From: Sulfurospirillaceae bacterium | GTDB lineage: Bacteria; Campylobacterota; Campylobacteria; Campylobacterales; Sulfurospirillaceae | Reading direction: 5' to 3' | Length of the DNA stretch: 64,000 bases | Assembly: GCA_028684065.1 (NCBI GenBank) | Contig: JAQUGO010000005.1 | Coordinates: 62,001 to 126,000 of the forward strand | Shown: positions 7,764 through 19,686 of the stretch, piece by piece | Layout: the number at the start of each line of letters is the position of its first letter | Position numbering within the stretch: the first letter of the stretch is position 1 | Made by a program: the position numbers and the translations under genes | The notes under the pieces: model-generated | Seen by the model: only the letters and a program-made list of their open reading frames with translations | Databases searched by the model: none | Told to the model about the DNA's origin: nothing

Positions 7764-7790
7764 TAAAGTTTTTTAGTGCTATTCCGATTT
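7764..7790 (+). promoter_or_regulatory. Sigma28 (FliA)-type promoter of flagellin
   Basis: TAAA at 7764-7767 and CCGATTT at 7784-7790 are separated by 16 bases, close to the FliA consensus TAAA-N15-GCCGATAA. The elements lie about 57 bases before the flagellin start, as expected for a late-class flagellar gene. Confidence 0.75.
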
Positions 7791-7846: not shown

Positions 7847-10261
7847 ATGGGTTTCAGAATTAACACAAACATTGCAGCACTTAATTCACATACAGCCGCT
7901 ACAATGAACAACAGAAATTTGGACAATGCATTGTCTAAATTGTCTTCAGGTCTTCGTATCAACAAAGCAGCAGATGATGCTTCTGGTCTTGCAATTGCAA
8001 ACTCATTGCGTGCACAAGCAAGCTCCCTTGGTCAAGCAGTATCTAATGGTAACGATGCGATTGGTTTGATTCAGACTGCCGATGGTGCGCTTAGCGAATA
8101 CTCTAACATTCTTGATACTATCAAGACTAAAGCAGTACAAGCAGCATCTGATGGTCAAAATACTTCTTCTCGTTTAGCAATCCAAAAAGATATTGATGCT
8201 TTGATGAAAGAATTAAACATCATTGCGAAAACAACATCTTTCAATGGTCAAAAACTTCTCTCTGGTACTTTCCAAAACAAAGAATTCCAGATGGGTGCAA
8301 ATGCTAACGAAAGTATTAAAGTAAGTATTGCTTCTGCTGAGACAAGTCAAATTGGTCAAACTTCACGTGCTGATTTAAATCTTGCAAGTGAGATGGGTGG
8401 AAATGTACAATTAACACTTAAAAGTGCTACCACAGGTAAAGAAATTACACTTAAGAATGTTGATATTCAGTACAACAACAATACACAGAATGGTATGGGT
8501 GCATTAGCAGATGAAATAAACCGTTATAGTGGTGATACAGGCATTACTGCAAAAGCCATTGTAAGTTCTTCTGCTGCAGCTGCTGTTAGTGCAGGAACAA
8601 CAGGAAGTGATTTTGCAATTAATGGTATTAATATTGGTGCTATTAATGTATCAGCAAACGACAATGACGGTACTCTTGTCAATGCAATCAACTCAAAAAC
8701 TACCCAAACAGGTGTGTCTGCTACTATGAGTACAGATGGTAAACTAACACTTACTAGTGATGGTAGAAGCATCAAAGTTGAGGGCGATATTGCAGGTGTT
8801 GCAGGTTCAACAGCTAGCCAAATGAGTACAGTTGGATATCTTGAACTAGTTCAATCAGGTTCTTCAGAGTTTCAAATTCAAGGAATTGGCACAGGAGCTG
8901 TAACTAATAAGTTTACGACGACTGCTGACACGACTACGGTAAAAGACTCTATTTTATCTGCAGGCTCAACAATTAAGTCAGGATCAACTTTAAAAGCGGG
9001 AACAGTTGTAGGCGGTAATGTTCTAGTAACAGCAGCAGCAGTTTCAACAGTCATCGATAGTACTCTTAAATCAGGAACAGTTCTAGGAAGTGGTTCAATT
9101 TTTAAAGCAGGTACACAAATAGGTGGAACGGTTACTACTGCAACGGCTACTCAAGCATTAACACAAGATGCACTTGTAAAAGCAGGTTCAACATTGAATG
9201 CTGGATCTACTCTTGGTGCTGGAACTGTTATTCAACAAAACTTTACAGATGGTACAACGGATTTTGTTAAAGGTCAAGTATTAGGGGCTGCGTTCACAAC
9301 TACAGCTGATTTAACACTCACTGCAGATATGACATTAAAATATAGCTCTACTGCGGCATTAAACTCAAAAATTGATGCAGGGACAATCTTACAATCAGGA
9401 TCTGTCTTGGGTGTAACTACAACACAAAATAGTACTACTGCCGTTACCTTGTCAGATGATATGACACTAAAGACAGGTAGTACATTAGGAATCAATACGA
9501 TTTTACAAGCAGGTAGTACAGTTGGTGGAGATTTTGTAACCAGTGGCGATAAAGTAACTTTCTTGCAAACAGATCTTAAAGCAGCAAGTACCTTGTTATC
9601 TGGAGCAGTCTTTAATACAGGCTCAACCATCGGCGGGGCTGTAACTACTGGTATTGCAGCAGGTAGCTTTAAAGAAGACATGATGGTTAAAGCTGGTAGT
9701 ACACTTGCTGTTGGAACAAAATTTGCAGCAGGCACCATTTTAAATCAAGATATGACAATTGCTACTATCAGTTATAAAGCGGGTGATGTACTTGAGCAAG
9801 ATCGTGCATTAGGTGCAGGCGAAGCTGTTACTTTAGCAACAGATATGGTTCTAAAAGGTAGTACAACTGCTGTCTTAGGTGCTGGTAGTGTTCTTCAAAC
9901 CAATACTGAGAATGCTGGAACCGTAGGACTTAGTAATTCTGAATTTACTAATCTTTCAAGTATTGATGTTACTACACTTGAAGGCGCTATGAAAGCTATT
10001 GATACACTTGGTGCTGCAATGACAAATCTTGATACAATTCGTTCAGGTTTGGGTTCTGTTCAAAATCAAGTTGTTAGTACTATCAACAATATTTCTGTAA
10101 CGCAAGTAAACGTTAAATCAGCGGAATCTAATATCCGTGATGTTGACTTTGCCGCAGAATCTGCAAATTTCTCAAAGTTTAATATTCTTGCACAATCAGG
10201 AAGTTATGCAATGAGTCAAGCAAATGCTGTACAGCAAAATGTACTTAGACTACTACAATAG
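7847..10261 (+). CDS. flaA: Flagellin with large repeat-bearing surface domain
   Basis: The major filament subunit, 804 residues from ATG 7847. I chose this start over the track start at 7811 because it follows AAAAGGATTTATC and begins MGFRINTNIAALNSHTAA, the canonical Campylobacter-type flagellin N-terminus. D0/D1 helices occupy roughly residues 1-175 and 700-804, ending ...ANAVQQNVLRLLQ. A Flagellin_IN motif lies near 240-305 (NGINIGAINVSANDND, then VNAINSKTTQTGVSATM). Residues about 360-687 are Thr/Ser/Gly-rich repeats of L-x-[AS]-G-[ST]-x hexads, described separately. At 804 residues it is well above the roughly 570-residue Campylobacter flagellins. Ser/Thr residues of the surface domain are likely pseudaminic acid attachment sites, made by the adjacent cluster. 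Transcription is from a FliA-type promoter and ends at a 13-bp hairpin. Confidence 0.96.
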   Translation: MGFRINTNIAALNSHTAATMNNRNLDNALSKLSSGLRINKAADDASGLAIANSLRAQASSLGQAVSNGNDAIGLIQTADGALSEYSNILDTIKTKAVQAASDGQNTSSRLAIQKDIDALMKELNIIAKTTSFNGQKLLSGTFQNKEFQMGANANESIKVSIASAETSQIGQTSRADLNLASEMGGNVQLTLKSATTGKEITLKNVDIQYNNNTQNGMGALADEINRYSGDTGITAKAIVSSSAAAAVSAGTTGSDFAINGINIGAINVSANDNDGTLVNAINSKTTQTGVSATMSTDGKLTLTSDGRSIKVEGDIAGVAGSTASQMSTVGYLELVQSGSSEFQIQGIGTGAVTNKFTTTADTTTVKDSILSAGSTIKSGSTLKAGTVVGGNVLVTAAAVSTVIDSTLKSGTVLGSGSIFKAGTQIGGTVTTATATQALTQDALVKAGSTLNAGSTLGAGTVIQQNFTDGTTDFVKGQVLGAAFTTTADLTLTADMTLKYSSTAALNSKIDAGTILQSGSVLGVTTTQNSTTAVTLSDDMTLKTGSTLGINTILQAGSTVGGDFVTSGDKVTFLQTDLKAASTLLSGAVFNTGSTIGGAVTTGIAAGSFKEDMMVKAGSTLAVGTKFAAGTILNQDMTIATISYKAGDVLEQDRALGAGEAVTLATDMVLKGSTTAVLGAGSVLQTNTENAGTVGLSNSEFTNLSSIDVTTLEGAMKAIDTLGAAMTNLDTIRSGLGSVQNQVVSTINNISVTQVNVKSAESNIRDVDFAAESANFSKFNILAQSGSYAMSQANAVQQNVLRLLQ
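8920..9906 (+). repeat. About eight degenerate ~38-residue repeats in the flagellin D2/D3 region
   Basis: Repeats begin roughly at residues KDSILSAGST, DSTLKSGTV, QDALVKAGST, ADMTLKYSST, DDMTLKTGST, QTDLKAASTL, EDMMVKAGST and ATDMVLKGST. Each contains three or four successive hexads of pattern [LIV]-x-[AS]-G-[ST]-x and usually ends in [VI]GG. The period of six with an aliphatic residue at the first position resembles left-handed beta-helix (hexapeptide) sequences. DNA-level identity between copies is low, so this is an old protein-level repeat rather than a recent tandem duplication. Confidence 0.8.
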
Positions 10262-10277: not shown

Positions 10278-10305
10278 GTGAGGCCATCTTATAAGATGGT
10301 CTCAC
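10278..10305 (+). terminator. Flagellin terminator hairpin
   Basis: GTGAGGCCATCTT and AAGATGGTCTCAC form a 13-bp stem with one G-T wobble, with two bases of loop or fewer, followed by TCTTTTGTTAAATTTTTTT. The stop codon of the opposing PseE-like gene (10302-10304) lies inside the stem, so the two convergent transcripts share it. Confidence 0.88.
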
Positions 10306-12305
10306 TCTTTTGTTAAATTTTTTTCTATCACATCTATATACGCTGAAGCTATCTTCGTTATTTCATCTAAAACAATTTTATCAATTGCTTTGATATGGTT
10401 TTTTTCATTTTTAAGATTTGATGTATTAAATGTATCAAATAGAAAACTAAGAGAAATTTTAAAGTATTCGAGAAATATCTCTGCAATGTCAGATTTTTCT
10501 TCCTTATCCATTTCACAGATTTCTTGCATAAATGGAATCAGTTTTTTAAACAAATAATTATTGACTTCTTTTGATGTAACATGACGCATGTTATTACATT
10601 TATCTAATATATATTTTGCTTTTTCAAGTTGGTCTTGAATATTTTTTTTATCAATACTTCTGCATTCACAAGAGCTATTTTTCTGCAAAAAGTTACCAAA
10701 CGCTTTTTTTAATGAAAGACAATCTATAGTTTGTAAAACATTTTTTGAAATACTTTCTATTTTTAAAGGAATAGTTCCCTCTAAAAAGGCTCCATTGGAT
10801 AGATTATAAACGGTTTGGTCGGTTTGCTTATAATAAGCTAAGGCCTTAGCAAATTGAGTAATGGACAATCTAAAACTTGGTGTAGTAGGAATACTCTGTA
10901 TAAAATTTCCTTCTACATAACAAATTGATTTTTGAAACTGGATACTCTCTTCATTATTATCTGTTGCAAGTGTTTGATGTGCAATATGTAAATCAATATG
11001 GTCTTTCATTGTTGTAGGGTCTAAAGCAAGGTCTAAGCCTATAATATATACATTTTTTGCTCCTAAAATCAAAGGCAATATAGTAGCATACTCACCAATA
11101 CTTGGAAGATCAAAAAAACCATGGTTAGCTTTAAATGAAGTTGATTCTTCAATAAAAAAGAGTTTTTCTTTTTTGAGTTTATTTACGAGGTCTTGATGCA
11201 CATTGGAGCCCAAAATAAACATTGATGAATCAAAATATGACACATTAAGATTATCAAGCAAAAGAGTTGAATGTGCTTGTGGGTCTATATGAATAACGAG
11301 GTCAACACGAATGTTATGATACGATAAATGCCTGCATGATGATAAAACTGCTACGATAAAGAAGTTTTCTTGATTGTTTTTAATCCACTCTGTATTATGT
11401 TGAAGTGATGGACCTGAAGCTAAAACAAGAATAGGTTTTGTTGACAAAGGGGTATCGCAATAGGTTTTTGATATATCTAAAAAACAATAATTTTGAGTAA
11501 TTTTCTGAATCGTGCCCAAAGAGCGTGCCATAAATGCTTGATAGGGATAAGCTATACAGTTTTGGGACAAGGTAATACTTTGAAAAATTTTCAAATCTTC
11601 TTCGTAACTGTTACTAAAGGGTGTAAATTTAATATAGAGGTTATAGTTAAATGCTTCATTTAAAAAGTTAAAAAAAGAAGCTTGTGTGTCGCTGTAGTTT
11701 TGCATAATAGAAAAATAGCAGATACAATTTTTAGCCACTAGACTATAGTCTGTTATGAATAATGAAAGCCTAAATAATTCTAAATTATGTTCATGAATAA
11801 AAGCAACTTTAATATCGTGAGTTTCAATGATATCTTTTACATGTAAGCCTAATCCTACACCGAAAAAAATATATTTGTATAATTTCTCCATTTCAGAGTT
11901 ATCTTTAGGGGCAATTTTTGCATTATAATGAATAAGTTTGGCTGTGGCCCATAAGGAGCTATGAAAATTTTTAAAATTTCCAATTTCTTCTAATTCTTCT
12001 TCTTTAATAAGAAAACGTTGTTGTGCTTCAAAAACAGCACCTGACCTTTTCTTATCTACTGTCCGTAAAAGTTTTTCAGTATATTTGTTAGAGTTTTCTC
12101 CGTACAAAAAACAACCCGTAGATAATTCTTGCACGTCAAAATAACCTTCTTCTTTATATTCTAAAGCATAGTGTTCTTTGTATATTTCTTGAGATATGGA
12201 CGCTTCTAGCGTTATAATTCTTTTATAAAGTTCTGAATGGTTTTGTTCAAAATACAAAAGATTTGATTGATACGTTTGAAAGGCTACATTTTCTATGTTA
12301 TCCAT
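10302..12305 (-). CDS. Motility accessory factor, PseE/Maf-type (DUF115) flagellin glycosyltransferase candidate
   Basis: A 667-residue cytoplasmic protein of the Maf/PseE family, which contains the MptE-like DUF115 domain and is thought to transfer pseudaminic acid onto flagellin. The central domain shows PILVLASGPSLQHNTEWIKNN (about residue 290), VLSSCRHLSYHNIRVDLVIHIDPQAH, and VYIIGLDLALD. N-terminal and C-terminal regions are less conserved and helical. It is the last gene of the nine-gene pse cluster, joined directly to the methylase gene (0-base gap) and ending in the flagellin terminator. Its substrate should be CMP-Pse and its acceptor the flagellins on either side. pseE is the Campylobacter name; paralogues are common, so I leave the symbol open. 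Confidence 0.87.
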   Translation of the reverse strand: MDNIENVAFQTYQSNLLYFEQNHSELYKRIITLEASISQEIYKEHYALEYKEEGYFDVQELSTGCFLYGENSNKYTEKLLRTVDKKRSGAVFEAQQRFLIKEEELEEIGNFKNFHSSLWATAKLIHYNAKIAPKDNSEMEKLYKYIFFGVGLGLHVKDIIETHDIKVAFIHEHNLELFRLSLFITDYSLVAKNCICYFSIMQNYSDTQASFFNFLNEAFNYNLYIKFTPFSNSYEEDLKIFQSITLSQNCIAYPYQAFMARSLGTIQKITQNYCFLDISKTYCDTPLSTKPILVLASGPSLQHNTEWIKNNQENFFIVAVLSSCRHLSYHNIRVDLVIHIDPQAHSTLLLDNLNVSYFDSSMFILGSNVHQDLVNKLKKEKLFFIEESTSFKANHGFFDLPSIGEYATILPLILGAKNVYIIGLDLALDPTTMKDHIDLHIAHQTLATDNNEESIQFQKSICYVEGNFIQSIPTTPSFRLSITQFAKALAYYKQTDQTVYNLSNGAFLEGTIPLKIESISKNVLQTIDCLSLKKAFGNFLQKNSSCECRSIDKKNIQDQLEKAKYILDKCNNMRHVTSKEVNNYLFKKLIPFMQEICEMDKEEKSDIAEIFLEYFKISLSFLFDTFNTSNLKNEKNHIKAIDKIVLDEITKIASAYIDVIEKNLTKE

Positions 12306-12929
12306 TTAAAAACTTTTTTTCATTAAAAACCAGGTTGCATCACCTTGAGGGAAAACAGGATCACGATGATAAGTGAATCCATAATCTATTAATTCTAAAT
12401 CACTATAGATATCCATCATTTCTCCAGCAAAATCTCGTTTAAATAGTTTACCTTCATGGTTTCTATATGGTATCTCAACGGGCGTTGGATTATAGTATTC
12501 GACTAAGCAGATATATTTTTTTGATGAAGTATATATTTTTTCATAAACATTTTGAAGCTCATCCGGATTTATATGAATCAACACACCCTTTATTAAACTG
12601 AAATCTCTTTGATAGTCTGTTGTAAAGTCTAGAATTGATTGGTGATATATTTTTAAATTATCAATTTTCTTTAATTCTTTTACCGCATTGCTATTGATTT
12701 CTATAGCAGACAGCTCAACATTAGGCAATAAATTGCTAAGCGCATGTAAATTAAGACCAATATTGGACCCAAATTCTAAAATAGAGGTTACATTTTGTGT
12801 GCGAGATAAAATTTTTGAAAACATGACTATGTTAGAGGCTATAATTTTCTTTTCATTATTACGCAATATATATTCATCTCCAAATTGTCCCGCCCAAAAT
12901 TCTTCTTGTTCTGTTTTATAGTTTTTCAT
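12306..12929 (-). CDS. Pseudaminic acid biosynthesis-associated methylase
   Basis: A 207-residue class I SAM-dependent methyltransferase. The SAM-binding motif I is visible as ILEFGSNIGLNLHALSNLLP (about residues 53-72), followed by the acidic loop LSAIEINSNAV. The N-terminus (KNYKTEQEEFWAGQFGDEYILRN) is the signature of a methylase family that occurs in Pse operons. The product probably methylates a Pse-derived sugar or the glycoprotein; the exact acceptor is unknown. It sits between pseI (53 bases upstream) and the PseE-like gene (immediately downstream). Confidence 0.85.
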   Translation of the reverse strand: MKNYKTEQEEFWAGQFGDEYILRNNEKKIIASNIVMFSKILSRTQNVTSILEFGSNIGLNLHALSNLLPNVELSAIEINSNAVKELKKIDNLKIYHQSILDFTTDYQRDFSLIKGVLIHINPDELQNVYEKIYTSSKKYICLVEYYNPTPVEIPYRNHEGKLFKRDFAGEMMDIYSDLELIDYGFTYHRDPVFPQGDATWFLMKKSF

Positions 12930-14025: not shown

Positions 14026-14571
14026 TTAAATCCTATTGATTATTTTTTCTAAGTATGGACGTTTTTCAATCCATTCTTCATGTAAAATACCTAATAAAAC
14101 AACATCTACTCTTTTATTGTCTTTGATAATATTTTTTCTTTTTATTCCTTCAATAATAAAGCCAAATTTTTGATGGAGTTTAACTACTAATGGATTAGTT
14201 TCAAGAACTTCACAATTCAGTTTTATAAGTTTAAATGTATTAAAAATAAAATTCAAGAAATGATATTCTAAGGCAGCACCTAGGCCTTTATGGGAGAGAT
14301 AATTAGGGTTTAAATAAAAAGCCCAATCGGCAGTTGACCAGAGAGGTTTATAATTATTAAGTGAGACTAAACCAATTGGAATGTTATCATTAAAAGCAAT
14401 ATAAACATGATTTGTATGAGTTTCATGAAGCGAGGTTAGCCATTGATTATGTTCATCACTTGAAATGGTATGATCACTGTACATATTCTTTCTTATTTCA
14501 CTATGATTTCGCCAGTTTCTTACTTCTTGTTGAAGTTCAATAGGGCAAGATAAAATATTTTTAAATATCAT
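14026..14571 (-). CDS. pseH: PseH-type GNAT acetyltransferase
   Basis: A 181-residue GNAT-fold N-acetyltransferase, expected to acetylate the 4-amino group of UDP-4-amino-4,6-dideoxy-AltNAc, the third step of pseudaminic acid synthesis. The opening VRNWRNHSEIRKNMYSDHTISSDEHNQWL is typical of PseH, and the acetyl-CoA loop region is LSHKGLGAALEYHFLNFIFN. The C-terminal segment LNCEVLETNPLVVKLHQKFGF completes the fold. It overlaps the formyltransferase homologue by four bases (ATGA) and sits next to pseI. Confidence 0.9.
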   Translation of the reverse strand: MIFKNILSCPIELQQEVRNWRNHSEIRKNMYSDHTISSDEHNQWLTSLHETHTNHVYIAFNDNIPIGLVSLNNYKPLWSTADWAFYLNPNYLSHKGLGAALEYHFLNFIFNTFKLIKLNCEVLETNPLVVKLHQKFGFIIEGIKRKNIIKDNKRVDVVLLGILHEEWIEKRPYLEKIINRI

Positions 14572-15200
14572 GGTTCTACCTTTTCAATTTTAAGGGTATA
14601 TTTAATTTGATTTAATTCAAAGTAAGCAGGATAAAGCTCATTATCGCAAATTCGTAAAAGATTAAATTGTTCATAAATGCTTTTATGGATATCTAGTTTA
14701 TTATCAGAAGCTATGCGTTTGTGGTAATAGCTTGGACTACCTATTTGCGGATATGCTTTTTTGTAGATTGTATAATTTTGAATGAATTCTAAACACATTT
14801 GACTAACAAATTGCGCTTCCTTCTTTCTTAATTCATCATGCAATTCAAAGCCTGTCAGTGTCAGTATCCTTTGCATATAAATATCCCCATCATCTATGCC
14901 TTGAGAGGCTTCAAACATTGAAAAGGGAATCTCATTTTTACCTTCTAATATTTGCCAAAACATGGGTGCCCAACCTTTGCCTTTGGGTAATGCTGAAGCA
15001 TGTATGACGATGTTATGTTTGTGTTTTTGTAGGTATTCTTTTTCGATGAGACAGTGGTAACTCAAAATCAAAACGAGGGAATAATTTTCTTCTATTTCTT
15101 TATGATTAAAAAAGAGCTTAGAGCCTTGGATTGTTGTTTCAAGCTTTTGTGCATAAGGGACAAACCATTGATTTTGTGAGGTTAGAATTGCAACTTTCAT
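14568..15200 (-). CDS. Formyltransferase-fold protein of the pse cluster
   Basis: A 210-residue protein related to the N-terminal domain of methionyl-tRNA and sugar N-formyltransferases. The core shows NIVIHASALPKGKGWAPMFWQILEG followed by ASQGIDDGDIYMQRIL. The His of the family N-x-H signature and the Asp of the D-x-G-D motif are present, but the Asn position before the His is Val (V-I-H), so the usual N-H-D catalytic triad is incomplete. In a Pse operon such a protein could put a formyl or other acyl group on the sugar in place of an acetyl, or act as an inactive scaffold; this is inference. It is co-translated with pseG and pseH by four-base overlaps. Confidence 0.8.
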   Translation of the reverse strand: MKVAILTSQNQWFVPYAQKLETTIQGSKLFFNHKEIEENYSLVLILSYHCLIEKEYLQKHKHNIVIHASALPKGKGWAPMFWQILEGKNEIPFSMFEASQGIDDGDIYMQRILTLTGFELHDELRKKEAQFVSQMCLEFIQNYTIYKKAYPQIGSPSYYHKRIASDNKLDIHKSIYEQFNLLRICDNELYPAYFELNQIKYTLKIEKVEP

Positions 15201-16066
15201 TTTAAAAACCTTTTAACTTCATACTTGAATGTCGTAGCACTAAATCTTTCTAAGACATGATAATCATGTTGTTTTAAGTATTGGTACATATCGTCTTGAT
15301 TATCGGCAACTTTAATGGCGATAAAGGGTACTTCCATAAAGAGCACTTCGTGCACCATGACGCTGGGCGTTACAATAGCAAGGCGGCTTTGGTGTATCAG
15401 TTTGGCGACTTCATTAGAGTTGACATGTAAAGTAATATTAGGTTTATCATTACTGTAGTTTTGAAGCTCTTCTAAATGAGCATTAGAATGCGTTGTTAGA
15501 ACGCTAACATGCAAAGAGGTTGGTAATGTTTTTAAAATCTTCTGCGTGATATTAGAAGCATCGCTTCCGCCCATCGCAATCAAAACGTCGTAGATTTTTT
15601 CACGCTTACATTTTTTTTCTTCTCTAAATTCATCTCGAATAAGGGTGTAAAGACTGCCACAACGAAGTTCACAATGCAGTGGCACTAAATCTTTATAGCG
15701 TTTTTTATCGGCTGAGATATTATGATTGAGTAAAATATCGCAATAATGCGGTTGATAAGTATCATCAAAAGAGAGAATTTCGACTCCCGTAGCACTTTTG
15801 ACTTTTTGCTCAAAATGCACATCAATGCCATAATGGTCAATCACTAAAAGCTTTACATGTAAAGCTTTTATAAGGGCTATCAGTTCATTCGCATCATTTG
15901 ATTTTAAAATCTTGACTTCATAGGGAATGCTAGAGATGATATTGCCTTCTAAATTCTGGCATGCAAAAAAGACTTCACCCTCTAAATTTTTGGCTAACAC
16001 CAAATCGCGCATAATATGCCCAAGACCGATGGTGCTTGAACTATCAGCCCTTATAAGCGTTTTCAT
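15197..16066 (-). CDS. pseG: UDP-2,4-diacetamido-2,4,6-trideoxy-beta-L-altropyranose hydrolase
   Basis: A GT-B fold sugar-nucleotide hydrolase that releases UDP from the UDP-linked precursor before PseI acts. From ATG 16066 it has 289 residues; the track start at 16075 is a TTG and adds only MDC. The N-terminus MKTLIRADSSSTIGLGHIMRDL contains the G-x-G-H-x-x-R catalytic motif of PseG, and the C-terminal half shows VLIAMGGSDASNITQKIL and the nucleotide-binding IVTPSVMVHEVLFMEVPFIAI. It overlaps pseF by 23 bases upstream and the formyltransferase homologue by four bases downstream. A 26-bp perfect palindrome lies within its coding sequence. Confidence 0.95.
   Translation of the reverse strand: MKTLIRADSSSTIGLGHIMRDLVLAKNLEGEVFFACQNLEGNIISSIPYEVKILKSNDANELIALIKALHVKLLVIDHYGIDVHFEQKVKSATGVEILSFDDTYQPHYCDILLNHNISADKKRYKDLVPLHCELRCGSLYTLIRDEFREEKKCKREKIYDVLIAMGGSDASNITQKILKTLPTSLHVSVLTTHSNAHLEELQNYSNDKPNITLHVNSNEVAKLIHQSRLAIVTPSVMVHEVLFMEVPFIAIKVADNQDDMYQYLKQHDYHVLERFSATTFKYEVKRFLK
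15845..15870. repeat. 26-bp perfect palindrome centred on ACATGT (inside pseG)
   Basis: TAAAAGCTTTACA followed by its exact reverse complement. It is the longest copy in this window of the TTTACATGTAAA word described in the findings. In frame it encodes part of IKALHVKLL, so it contains the recurring Leu-His-Val. Confidence 0.9.
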
Positions 16067-16747
16067 GCAATCCAAGCGCTTTATACATAAACTCAGCCCT
16101 TATCCAATCCTCTGGGGTGTCAATGTCTTGTACTAAATGACGAGGCAAAAGAACGGCTGTGGAGTGTGGAGCAAAAATAATTTGAGCTTCCAACCATGCT
16201 TCTGGAGTGCCCCAATAAAACTGTCCTGCATCGTGGTAAGCCTCTTCTAACTCTTGGGAACGCACCGCAAAATTCTCAGGGGAAAACATCTCAACGCGAT
16301 CTTCTTTAGTCAAACGGATAGCACGTTGAATTGGGAAGGGAAAGCTGGTTGCACTAAAGGCATAGGAGGCTTTGGTCCGTTTAAGCTTTTCATACGCTTC
16401 TTTGATAAACATCGGGTGCACAAAAGGGGCTGTAGCATAGATGCAACAAATGGCTTCGAGCTGAGATAACTCAGGACATGTCGTGCGAATGGCATGCGCA
16501 ATGACAGGAATCGTTGTGGTATGGTCATCACTGAGTTCACGAGGACGCATAAAAGGAATGTCAGCACCATACCTCTTAGCAATTTCAGCAATTTCCTCAT
16601 CATCTGTGCTCACAACAATTTTATCAAAAAGCCCGCTTTGCTTGGCCGCTTCGATACTATAAGCAATCATGGGTTTACCACAAAATTCTTTAATGTTTTT
16701 GCGAGGGATACGTTTACTCCCACCCCTTGCAGGGATGATAGCGAGTC

Positions 16748-16751
<4 letters not shown>
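16044..16751 (-). CDS. pseF: Pseudaminic acid cytidylyltransferase
   Basis: A 235-residue nucleotidyltransferase that activates pseudaminic acid with CTP to CMP-Pse, the donor for flagellin glycosylation. The start is placed at ATG 16751 because MRLAIIPARGGSKRIPRKNIKEFCGKP is the canonical N-terminus of CMP-sialic acid synthetase-like enzymes; the 29 extra residues in the track (from 16838) are an out-of-frame translation of the end of pseC. Other motifs are VVSTDDEEIAEIAKRYGAD and the C-terminal LVQDIDTPEDWIRAE. The start overlaps the pseC stop by four bases (ATGA). Confidence 0.95.
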
Positions 16752-18885
<2,134 letters not shown>

Positions 18886-18909
18886 TTAAGCAATTTCGAT
18901 TCCATAAGT

Positions 18910-18938
18910 TTGAAATATTTACAGAATGGGTGTATAAT
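18910..18938 (+). promoter_or_regulatory. Sigma70-type promoter of the FlaC-like gene
   Basis: TTGAAA at 18910-18915 and TATAAT at 18933-18938 are separated by exactly 17 bases, close to the vegetative consensus. A start site near 18945 would give a leader of about 22 bases carrying the AGAAGGAGG ribosome-binding site. No sigma28-like pair with proper spacing was found here. Confidence 0.75.
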
Positions 18939-18966
18939 AAAACAGAACAATAAGAAGGAGGCTATT

Positions 18967-19686
18967 ATGCAAGTAGGCAGTAGTTTCAATACATCGGTTA
19001 GTAATTTTGTAAGCAATAATAAAACTGAGGCTGAAAAGGCATTATCTAAAATTGTAGCAGTCAAAGAGCTCACGGGTAAAGATAATGCAAACCTTATGAT
19101 TTCAGATTCATTGGCATCGCAAATTTCAGCACTGACCCAAGGTATTCAAAACAGTAACGATGCTATTGGTATGTATCAAATTGCAGATAGTTCCATCAAT
19201 GCACTCAGTATTGGAACCGACAAAATGAATGATTTATCGGTGCGTTATAATAGTGATGTGCTCAATGCCTCACAAAAAGATATGCTTAAAAATGAGTTTT
19301 CATCTGTAGCAAAAAGTATGCAAGATACACTTTCGCAATCAACCTACAATGGGCAAAATGTGCTCTCTTCAGCTTTAGGTCTTGAAGTTAAAGGGCTCGA
19401 TACACTTTCCATTGATAATCAACAAGGCATTACAGATTTTCAAGGAAACTTGACATCACTTAGTTCTGAGATAGGTTCAAAAATACAATTATATGAAGTT
19501 GGCATTACGAATGCACTTTCTGCCGTATCAAATCTTACCAGTGCTAATGCTCAAATATCCGAAACGCCAATGGACCAAAAGATAATGGATTTGGCACAAA
19601 GTCAAATCAAACTTGATAGCTCTATAATGGCACAAGTGCATCAAACATCTCTAATGCAACAACAAATCTCTACACTATTGGCCTAA
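18967..19686 (+). CDS. flaC: FlaC-like small flagellin homologue
   Basis: A 239-residue protein from ATG 18967, chosen over the track start (18880) because it follows AGAAGGAGGCTATT and begins MQVGSSFNTSVSNF. It keeps flagellin-type D0/D1 helices (LSKIVAVKELTGKDNANLMISDSLASQISALTQGIQNSNDAIG; QDTLSQSTYNGQNVLSS) but lacks a variable D2/D3 domain. Its C-terminus (TSLMQQQISTLLA) resembles the last helix of flagellins only loosely. C. jejuni FlaC, a 249-residue protein secreted through the flagellar apparatus that is reported not to be a main filament component, has the same size and layout. It differs from flaA here in using a sigma70-type promoter, and its stop overlaps the start of a methyltransferase gene (TAATG). 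Confidence 0.85.
   Translation: MQVGSSFNTSVSNFVSNNKTEAEKALSKIVAVKELTGKDNANLMISDSLASQISALTQGIQNSNDAIGMYQIADSSINALSIGTDKMNDLSVRYNSDVLNASQKDMLKNEFSSVAKSMQDTLSQSTYNGQNVLSSALGLEVKGLDTLSIDNQQGITDFQGNLTSLSSEIGSKIQLYEVGITNALSAVSNLTSANAQISETPMDQKIMDLAQSQIKLDSSIMAQVHQTSLMQQQISTLLA

Follow-up and report, generated by a model that had tools for sequence, protein, structure and literature searches.

The flagellin encoded at this Sulfurospirillaceae locus has a long central region between its conserved ends, and the locus raises the question of what this region folds into and how it relates to the flagellin glycosylation genes that lie beside it. Surface domains of flagellins vary widely, and for few of them has a fold been assigned. 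An initial annotation of the window, by which we mean the whole 64,000-nucleotide stretch of DNA analyzed here, had predicted from the sequence that the region is a beta-solenoid built of six-residue repeats.

In this study, we document by computation a hexad repeat and its fold family, the retention of the flagellin D2 domain, a patchy spread among relatives, swapping of the central domain between species, and its co-occurrence and co-variation with a neighboring Maf-type glycosyltransferase. The best explanation overall, which we consider probable, is that a left-handed beta-helix (LbH) rod follows D2, is swapped together with a co-varying Maf, and constitutes a glycosylated outer coat.

Results

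Domain plan of the flagellin

The coding part of the flagellin gene spans 7847-10258 on the forward strand; its start was set at MGFRINTN, the start in all relatives, and the list of open reading frames begins 12 codons earlier. The product is a bacterial flagellin by virtue of PF00669 (155 bits) and PF00700 (102 bits), one at each end. In its own 2.67-Mb genome there is one match to a full-length filament flagellin, and two weaker matches are partial. The gene and its parts are as follows.

7764-7788, forward strand: putative sigma-28-like flagellar promoter TAAAG...CCGAT, the sole pattern match upstream of the flagellin gene
7847-10261, forward strand: flagellin gene, 804 aa, PF00669 and PF00700
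7847-8356, forward strand: D0/D1 N-terminal core, residues 1-170, PF00669; 84-99% identity among long-form congeners (see below)
8357-8881, forward strand: D2, residues 171-345, with two Flagellin_IN motifs (PF07196), placed by alignment with Campylobacter jejuni FlaA
8912-9910, forward strand: predicted LbH domain, residues 356-688, 53 hexads, about 17.7 turns, placed by periodicity, Pfam, PDB profiles, AF2 and indel phase
9968-10258, forward strand: D1/D0 C-terminal core, residues 708-804, PF00700

The solenoid had been thought to take the place of the usual D2/D3, and in this respect the prediction has to be revised. The alignment to C. jejuni FlaA reaches residue ~350, so that D2 is kept (residues ~171-345) and the LbH domain, which comes after it in the D3/D4 position, stands for what lies beyond D2. 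FlaA (PDB 6x80), from the same bacterial order, is of the same D0/D1/D2 type and also has an extra central part beyond D2, but it is 576 aa long and its post-D2 part aligns weakly with the window flagellin. Residues about 408-460 of FlaA hold a GSGFSRGSGFSVGSG stretch with a six-residue step, which may be a short or degenerate relative.

The window also contains a short flagellin-like gene (18880-19686, forward strand) that has Flagellin_N only (PF00669) and resembles the Campylobacter FlaC type; in congeners it is about 244-257 aa long, and most genomes of the genus have it.

A hexad repeat in the central region

The repeat region that had been placed at 8920-9906 corresponds to residues 358/359 to 687, as claimed, and the whole protein has 19 instances of the motif [LIVMF]-x-[AS]-G-[ST], 16 of these between residues 370 and 682. 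A period of six was recovered as well: over residues 341-690 the power of LIVMF residues was 17.2 at a period of 6.1, a value reached by 0 of 1000 shuffles in which the same residues were permuted, and the same LIVMF power test gave no period-six signal in the rest of the flagellin outside 341-690. The estimate of about eight repeats was confirmed. Most consist of two 18-residue turns plus small insertions, those at 444-496 and 614-666 have three turns, and the last has one; the [VI]GG endings attributed to them were found four times. The repeats, delimited by the hexad register, are listed here.

8954-9064, forward strand: repeat 1, residues 370-406
9065-9175, forward strand: repeat 2, residues 407-443
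9176-9334, forward strand: repeat 3, residues 444-496, three turns
9335-9466, forward strand: repeat 4, residues 497-540, with a 6-residue insertion that is partly helix in the AF2 model
9467-9574, forward strand: repeat 5, residues 541-576
9575-9685, forward strand: repeat 6, residues 577-613
9686-9844, forward strand: repeat 7, residues 614-666, three turns
9845-9910, forward strand: repeat 8, residues 667-688, the last turn

The register itself, of 53 hexads and 17.7 turns, was derived from the alignment of relatives, with residues 497-508 placed by hand as one hexad plus an insertion so as to keep the phase; the model has a short helix there. Among 27 proteins, the exact-length hexads (42 of the 53) have LIVMF at position i in 86% and Ser, Thr or Ala at i+4 in 69%. 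When the 333-aa domain was scanned alone, Pfam Hexapep matched with 40.1 bits (cut-off 27), and none of five composition-matched shuffles of the domain gave an LbH-family match. Chance or composition as the source of the repeat was rejected on the shuffles in the period test and the Pfam scan.

Assignment to the left-handed beta-helix fold

The left-handed parallel beta-helix that had been proposed is backed by Hexapep/LbH matches, PDB profiles, AF2 strands and an 18-residue indel phase. Hexapep (PF00132) is over its cut-off in the window protein and reaches E <= 0.1 in 9 of 11 relatives. Profiles of the domain built from relatives matched 21 PDB sequences at E<=0.1, a number that rises to 64 at E<=1; the matches listed are all LbH proteins (for example LpxD, LpxA, GlmU, QdtC, gamma-carbonic anhydrase and eIF2B-epsilon), with neither bactofilin nor any other right-handed helix among them. 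Structure prediction of the 804-aa protein by AF2 with 27 relatives gave a short strand per six residues from 362 to 683, with pLDDT mostly 80-94 in the LbH domain; overall pTM was 0.46, confidence was low at the hinges 346-350 and 689-693, and the single sequence gave a mean pLDDT of 36.6. Against the explanation, the best 50 PDB matches listed by Foldseek for the whole-chain model were all flagellins. The model had no convincing match among viral proteins, and a search of viral contigs did not turn up the LbH domain.

Insertions and deletions among relatives fell in 10 of 10 class-C hexads and in 3 of the 18 that belong to classes A1 and A3; the 25 hexads of classes B, D and A2 had none. The hexad phase is compatible with an unbroken three-step cycle across the 53 hexads. 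Because the register runs 1-2-3 throughout and class C is always on the same side, the variable loops are expected to line up as a ladder on a single prism edge, about every second turn. We regard the assignment of the domain to the LbH fold as very likely; that its strand crossing is left-handed is presumed from the relatives. An LbH rises 4.8 A per turn, and the central surface part would be a continuous LbH with some 17-18 turns and a length of roughly 8 nm, inserted as a rod behind a normal D2. Such a rod has widely separated ends, but the chain of a flagellin must run out and back, which counts against the explanation and raises the structural question of how a rod with distant ends is fitted into an out-and-back chain.

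The hexapeptide LbH proteins (PF00132; LpxA, LpxD, GlmU and QdtC), solved members of which are matched by the window domain profile, resemble the window domain in their aliphatic i, small i+4, 18-residue turns and corner loops. Unlike the LbH enzymes, the window LbH sits in a flagellin, is without the catalytic His, and has more turns; a typical LbH enzyme has fewer than the window's ~17.7. Residues 356-688 include just one Arg and are devoid of His, Cys, Trp and Pro. Since the acyltransferase catalytic His is thereby missing, an enzyme function as a hexapeptide acyltransferase was rejected. The metallopeptidase domain (HExxH) of a flagellinolysin was likewise rejected, NF033876 scoring 18 bits (cut-off 205) and matching the N-terminal core only.

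The central region had also been singled out as a Ser/Thr-rich target for glycosylation. The richness is real (94 of 333 residues), but its reading as sugar sites does not hold for the largest share, which lies at the inward i+4: in regular hexads, 25 of 65 Ser/Thr are at i+4 and 19 of 65 at i+5. Position i+4 faces the interior in the LbH fold. The Ser/Thr richness of the LbH is largely structural, and the i+5 Ser/Thr and the loops are possible, and plausible, acceptor sites.

Patchy distribution among relatives

The hexad pattern is present in flagellins of related genera, patchily across Sulfurospirillaceae, Sulfurimonadaceae and MAGs of other phyla, and the LbH flagellin form is not unique to the window genome. 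Within the genus Sulfurospirillum, a long form with the LbH (804-813 aa) occurs in 13 of 24 genomes and a short form (481-493 aa) in at least 9 of the 24, at the same locus beside topA. Long and short forms are intermixed on the topA tree, where the short forms make up two separate groups. The short flagellins share the D0-D2 plan and the topA-side locus with the window flagellin but are without the LbH, and their genomes are without a Maf of the window type. Outside the genus, 4 other Sulfurospirillaceae genomes carry the domain (17 in the family), and so do 13 of the 228 Sulfurimonadaceae genomes, where it frequently comes as tandem pairs. It is also present in 13 of 345 genomes from the phylum to which a MAG titled Deltaproteobacteria belongs, and in 2 of 5 genomes around a MAG titled Nitrospinota. 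All LbH carriers with readable ends are flagellins or flagellin-like, and the size of the LbH is constant, at about 340 residues, in the Campylobacterota members. Seven LbH flagellins of 930-1200 aa (L086, L097, L098 and L108-L111), from MAGs titled Deltaproteobacteria or Nitrospinota and relatives, have an enlarged central part that is partly tandem.

The adjacent Maf gene and the pse cluster

A Maf gene is convergent with the flagellin gene across a gap of 40 bases, and its product carries the MptE-like and Maf N-terminal domains (PF01973, 97.8 bits; PF20157, 52.5 bits). It is followed by the pse cluster, whose completeness had been noted at the outset and is borne out, pseB, C, F, G, H and I all being there.

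10302-12305, reverse strand: Maf-type flagellin glycosyltransferase, proposed partner of the LbH, PF01973 and PF20157
12306-12929, reverse strand: pseudaminic acid biosynthesis-associated methylase, TIGR03587
12983-14020, reverse strand: pseI, pseudaminic acid synthase, TIGR03586, over cut-off
14026-14571, reverse strand: pseH, TIGR03585, over cut-off
14568-15200, reverse strand: formyltransferase-like gene inside the pse cluster, PF00551
15197-16075, reverse strand: pseG, TIGR03590, over cut-off
16044-16838, reverse strand: pseF, TIGR03584, over cut-off
16748-17869, reverse strand: pseC-type aminotransferase, PF01041
17866-18855, reverse strand: pseB-type dehydratase, PF02719

From its family and the pse cluster, the Maf would be expected to transfer nonulosonic acid to flagellin Ser/Thr. 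The formyltransferase-like gene (14568-15200) and the Pse-associated methylase (12306-12929) hint at a modified pseudaminic acid.

Exchange of the domain and co-variation with Maf

The window LbH is 56-64% identical to the versions in G588, G595, L061 and L068, the last two being Sulfurimonadaceae-group flagellins; toward versions from other genera and another family the figure is 58-64%, and LbH versions with the same turn number are 36-64% identical to it. Its identity to congeners is 37-42%, whereas that of the core is 87-93%; for the nearest genome by topA (G022), the core is 93% identical, the LbH 41% and the Maf 38%. Among congeners the LbH is therefore distant while the core is near, which indicates that the LbH has been exchanged independently of the core.

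In the genus, a Maf (E<=1e-15) is present in 13 of 13 LbH genomes and in 0 of the 11 others, two of the latter being incomplete assemblies without a readable full flagellin; PseI is present in 23 of the 24. Across the family Sulfurospirillaceae, the 17 LbH genomes are the same 17 that have a Maf of >=37% identity, and the two genes are always adjacent. Identities of LbH and Maf are correlated, with r 0.75 over 25 genomes and 0.83 in the genus, and the partial Mantel r(LbH,Maf|core) is 0.705 for all 25 and 0.813 within the genus, with p=2e-4, the lowest value that 5000 permutations allow. The C-terminal core lies between LbH and Maf, and its third-position r in the genus is 0.12 with Maf and 0.18 with LbH but 0.61-0.66 with the N-terminal core; D2 and Maf correlate at 0.25-0.45. 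The C-terminal core goes with its N-terminal counterpart rather than with Maf or LbH, which favors, without proving it, a match of enzyme to acceptor over simple co-transfer. We judge it likely that the co-variation of LbH and Maf exceeds linkage, although part of it may be linkage of neighboring genes. The adjacent Maf, by co-occurring and co-varying with the LbH, backs the link to glycosylation more strongly than the Ser/Thr content does.

The LbH-Maf link is looser in Sulfurimonadaceae. There, a close Maf was found in 10 of 13 LbH genomes, and G461, G477, G218 and G485 have a close Maf with no LbH flagellin detected, although these are draft assemblies. At two loci (L143 and L145, of G461 and G218), the close Maf adjoins HisF/HisH-like genes, with no flagellin in view.

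Discussion

The results suggest that the LbH and its cognate Maf are an exchangeable surface module, and that flagellar coats are traded as a set of rod plus glycosylation. The LbH would coat the whole filament, since the genome yielded no second filament flagellin; it is traded among species on a filament core and D2 that remain in place, and the neighboring Maf varies along with it. We infer that Maf glycosylates the LbH domain and that enzyme and acceptor fit each other, this Maf adding pseudaminic-acid-type sugars to the outward Ser/Thr of the LbH version beside it. We see an even chance that the stronger form of this proposal is right, namely that the LbH and the adjacent Maf are an acceptor-enzyme pair that moves between genera and families as one functional unit, with Maf reading the beta-helix and sugaring its outer faces in a serotype-like switching. 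Such a swappable glycosylated coat would alter what phages, predators or surfaces meet and leave filament assembly untouched. The selective cause is a matter of speculation, escape from phages or predators being one example.

The same observations have other possible readings. The LbH may be real and its association with Maf a matter of physical linkage, both lying on the same transfer tracts while Maf acts elsewhere on the flagellin or indifferently. The convergent genes are close neighbors in LbH genomes and 40 bases apart in the window, as this would require; it nonetheless appears unlikely, because the C-terminal core between them tracks the N-terminal core and because the D2-Maf correlation is just 0.25-0.45. 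It is highly improbable that the domain is some other beta-structure, such as a right-handed helix or small beta-sandwich repeats of 38-45 residues, that merely resembles hexapeptide repeats. Repeat units of 36-53 residues, a left-handedness taken from relatives and a pTM of 0.46 would accommodate such a structure, but the PDB matches listed include no right-handed helix, the AF2 strands recur every six residues throughout, and the phase of the 53 hexads accords with a constant three-step cycle.

Two further readings concern what the LbH is for. A main role in thickening or stiffening the filament, as for other long flagellins, is quite unlikely: sister species have 481-493-aa flagellins without the LbH at the same locus, and stiffness needs no rapid swapping of versions, even though the LbH is of constant size in Campylobacterota members and giant flagellins form thick filaments in other bacteria (PMC6248924). 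A specific binding task, such as adhesion to minerals or cells in which the loop ladder serves as the binding face, would account for the surface position and for a scaffold that is regular apart from variable loops in a single hexad class. No ligand and no conserved loop motif were found, and an identity of 36-64% at equal turn number is more in keeping with a surface that diversifies than with a single conserved ligand, which makes this task very unlikely. The reading we favor remains a swapped LbH rod glycosylated by a co-varying Maf.

If true, an LbH of about 18 turns is a new type of flagellin outer domain, and solved flagellins are absent by sequence from the PDB profile matches to it. 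No description of a beta-helix or hexapeptide domain in a flagellin was found in the literature searched; of the 61 domains that Eckhard et al. report in flagellin central regions, the ten commonest are given in the main text and do not include the LbH, and the supplements may list one (PMC5595980). Flagellinolysins, the subject of that study (Eckhard et al. 2017), likewise have a foreign domain in the central flagellin and are scattered over phyla, a scatter read as lateral transfer, but the inserted domain is a metallopeptidase and that of the window an LbH. The giant Domain-Extension flagellins (Thomson et al. 2018, PMC6248924) also have an enlarged central surface part with repeats; they are set apart by its description, as an Oceanospirillales-type DE region that is not described as hexapeptide. 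The exchange of flagellar surfaces in environmental bacteria is here traceable at the level of domains, and the matched Mafs supply about 25 naturally occurring pairs of enzyme and acceptor with which to ask what Maf glycosyltransferases recognize.
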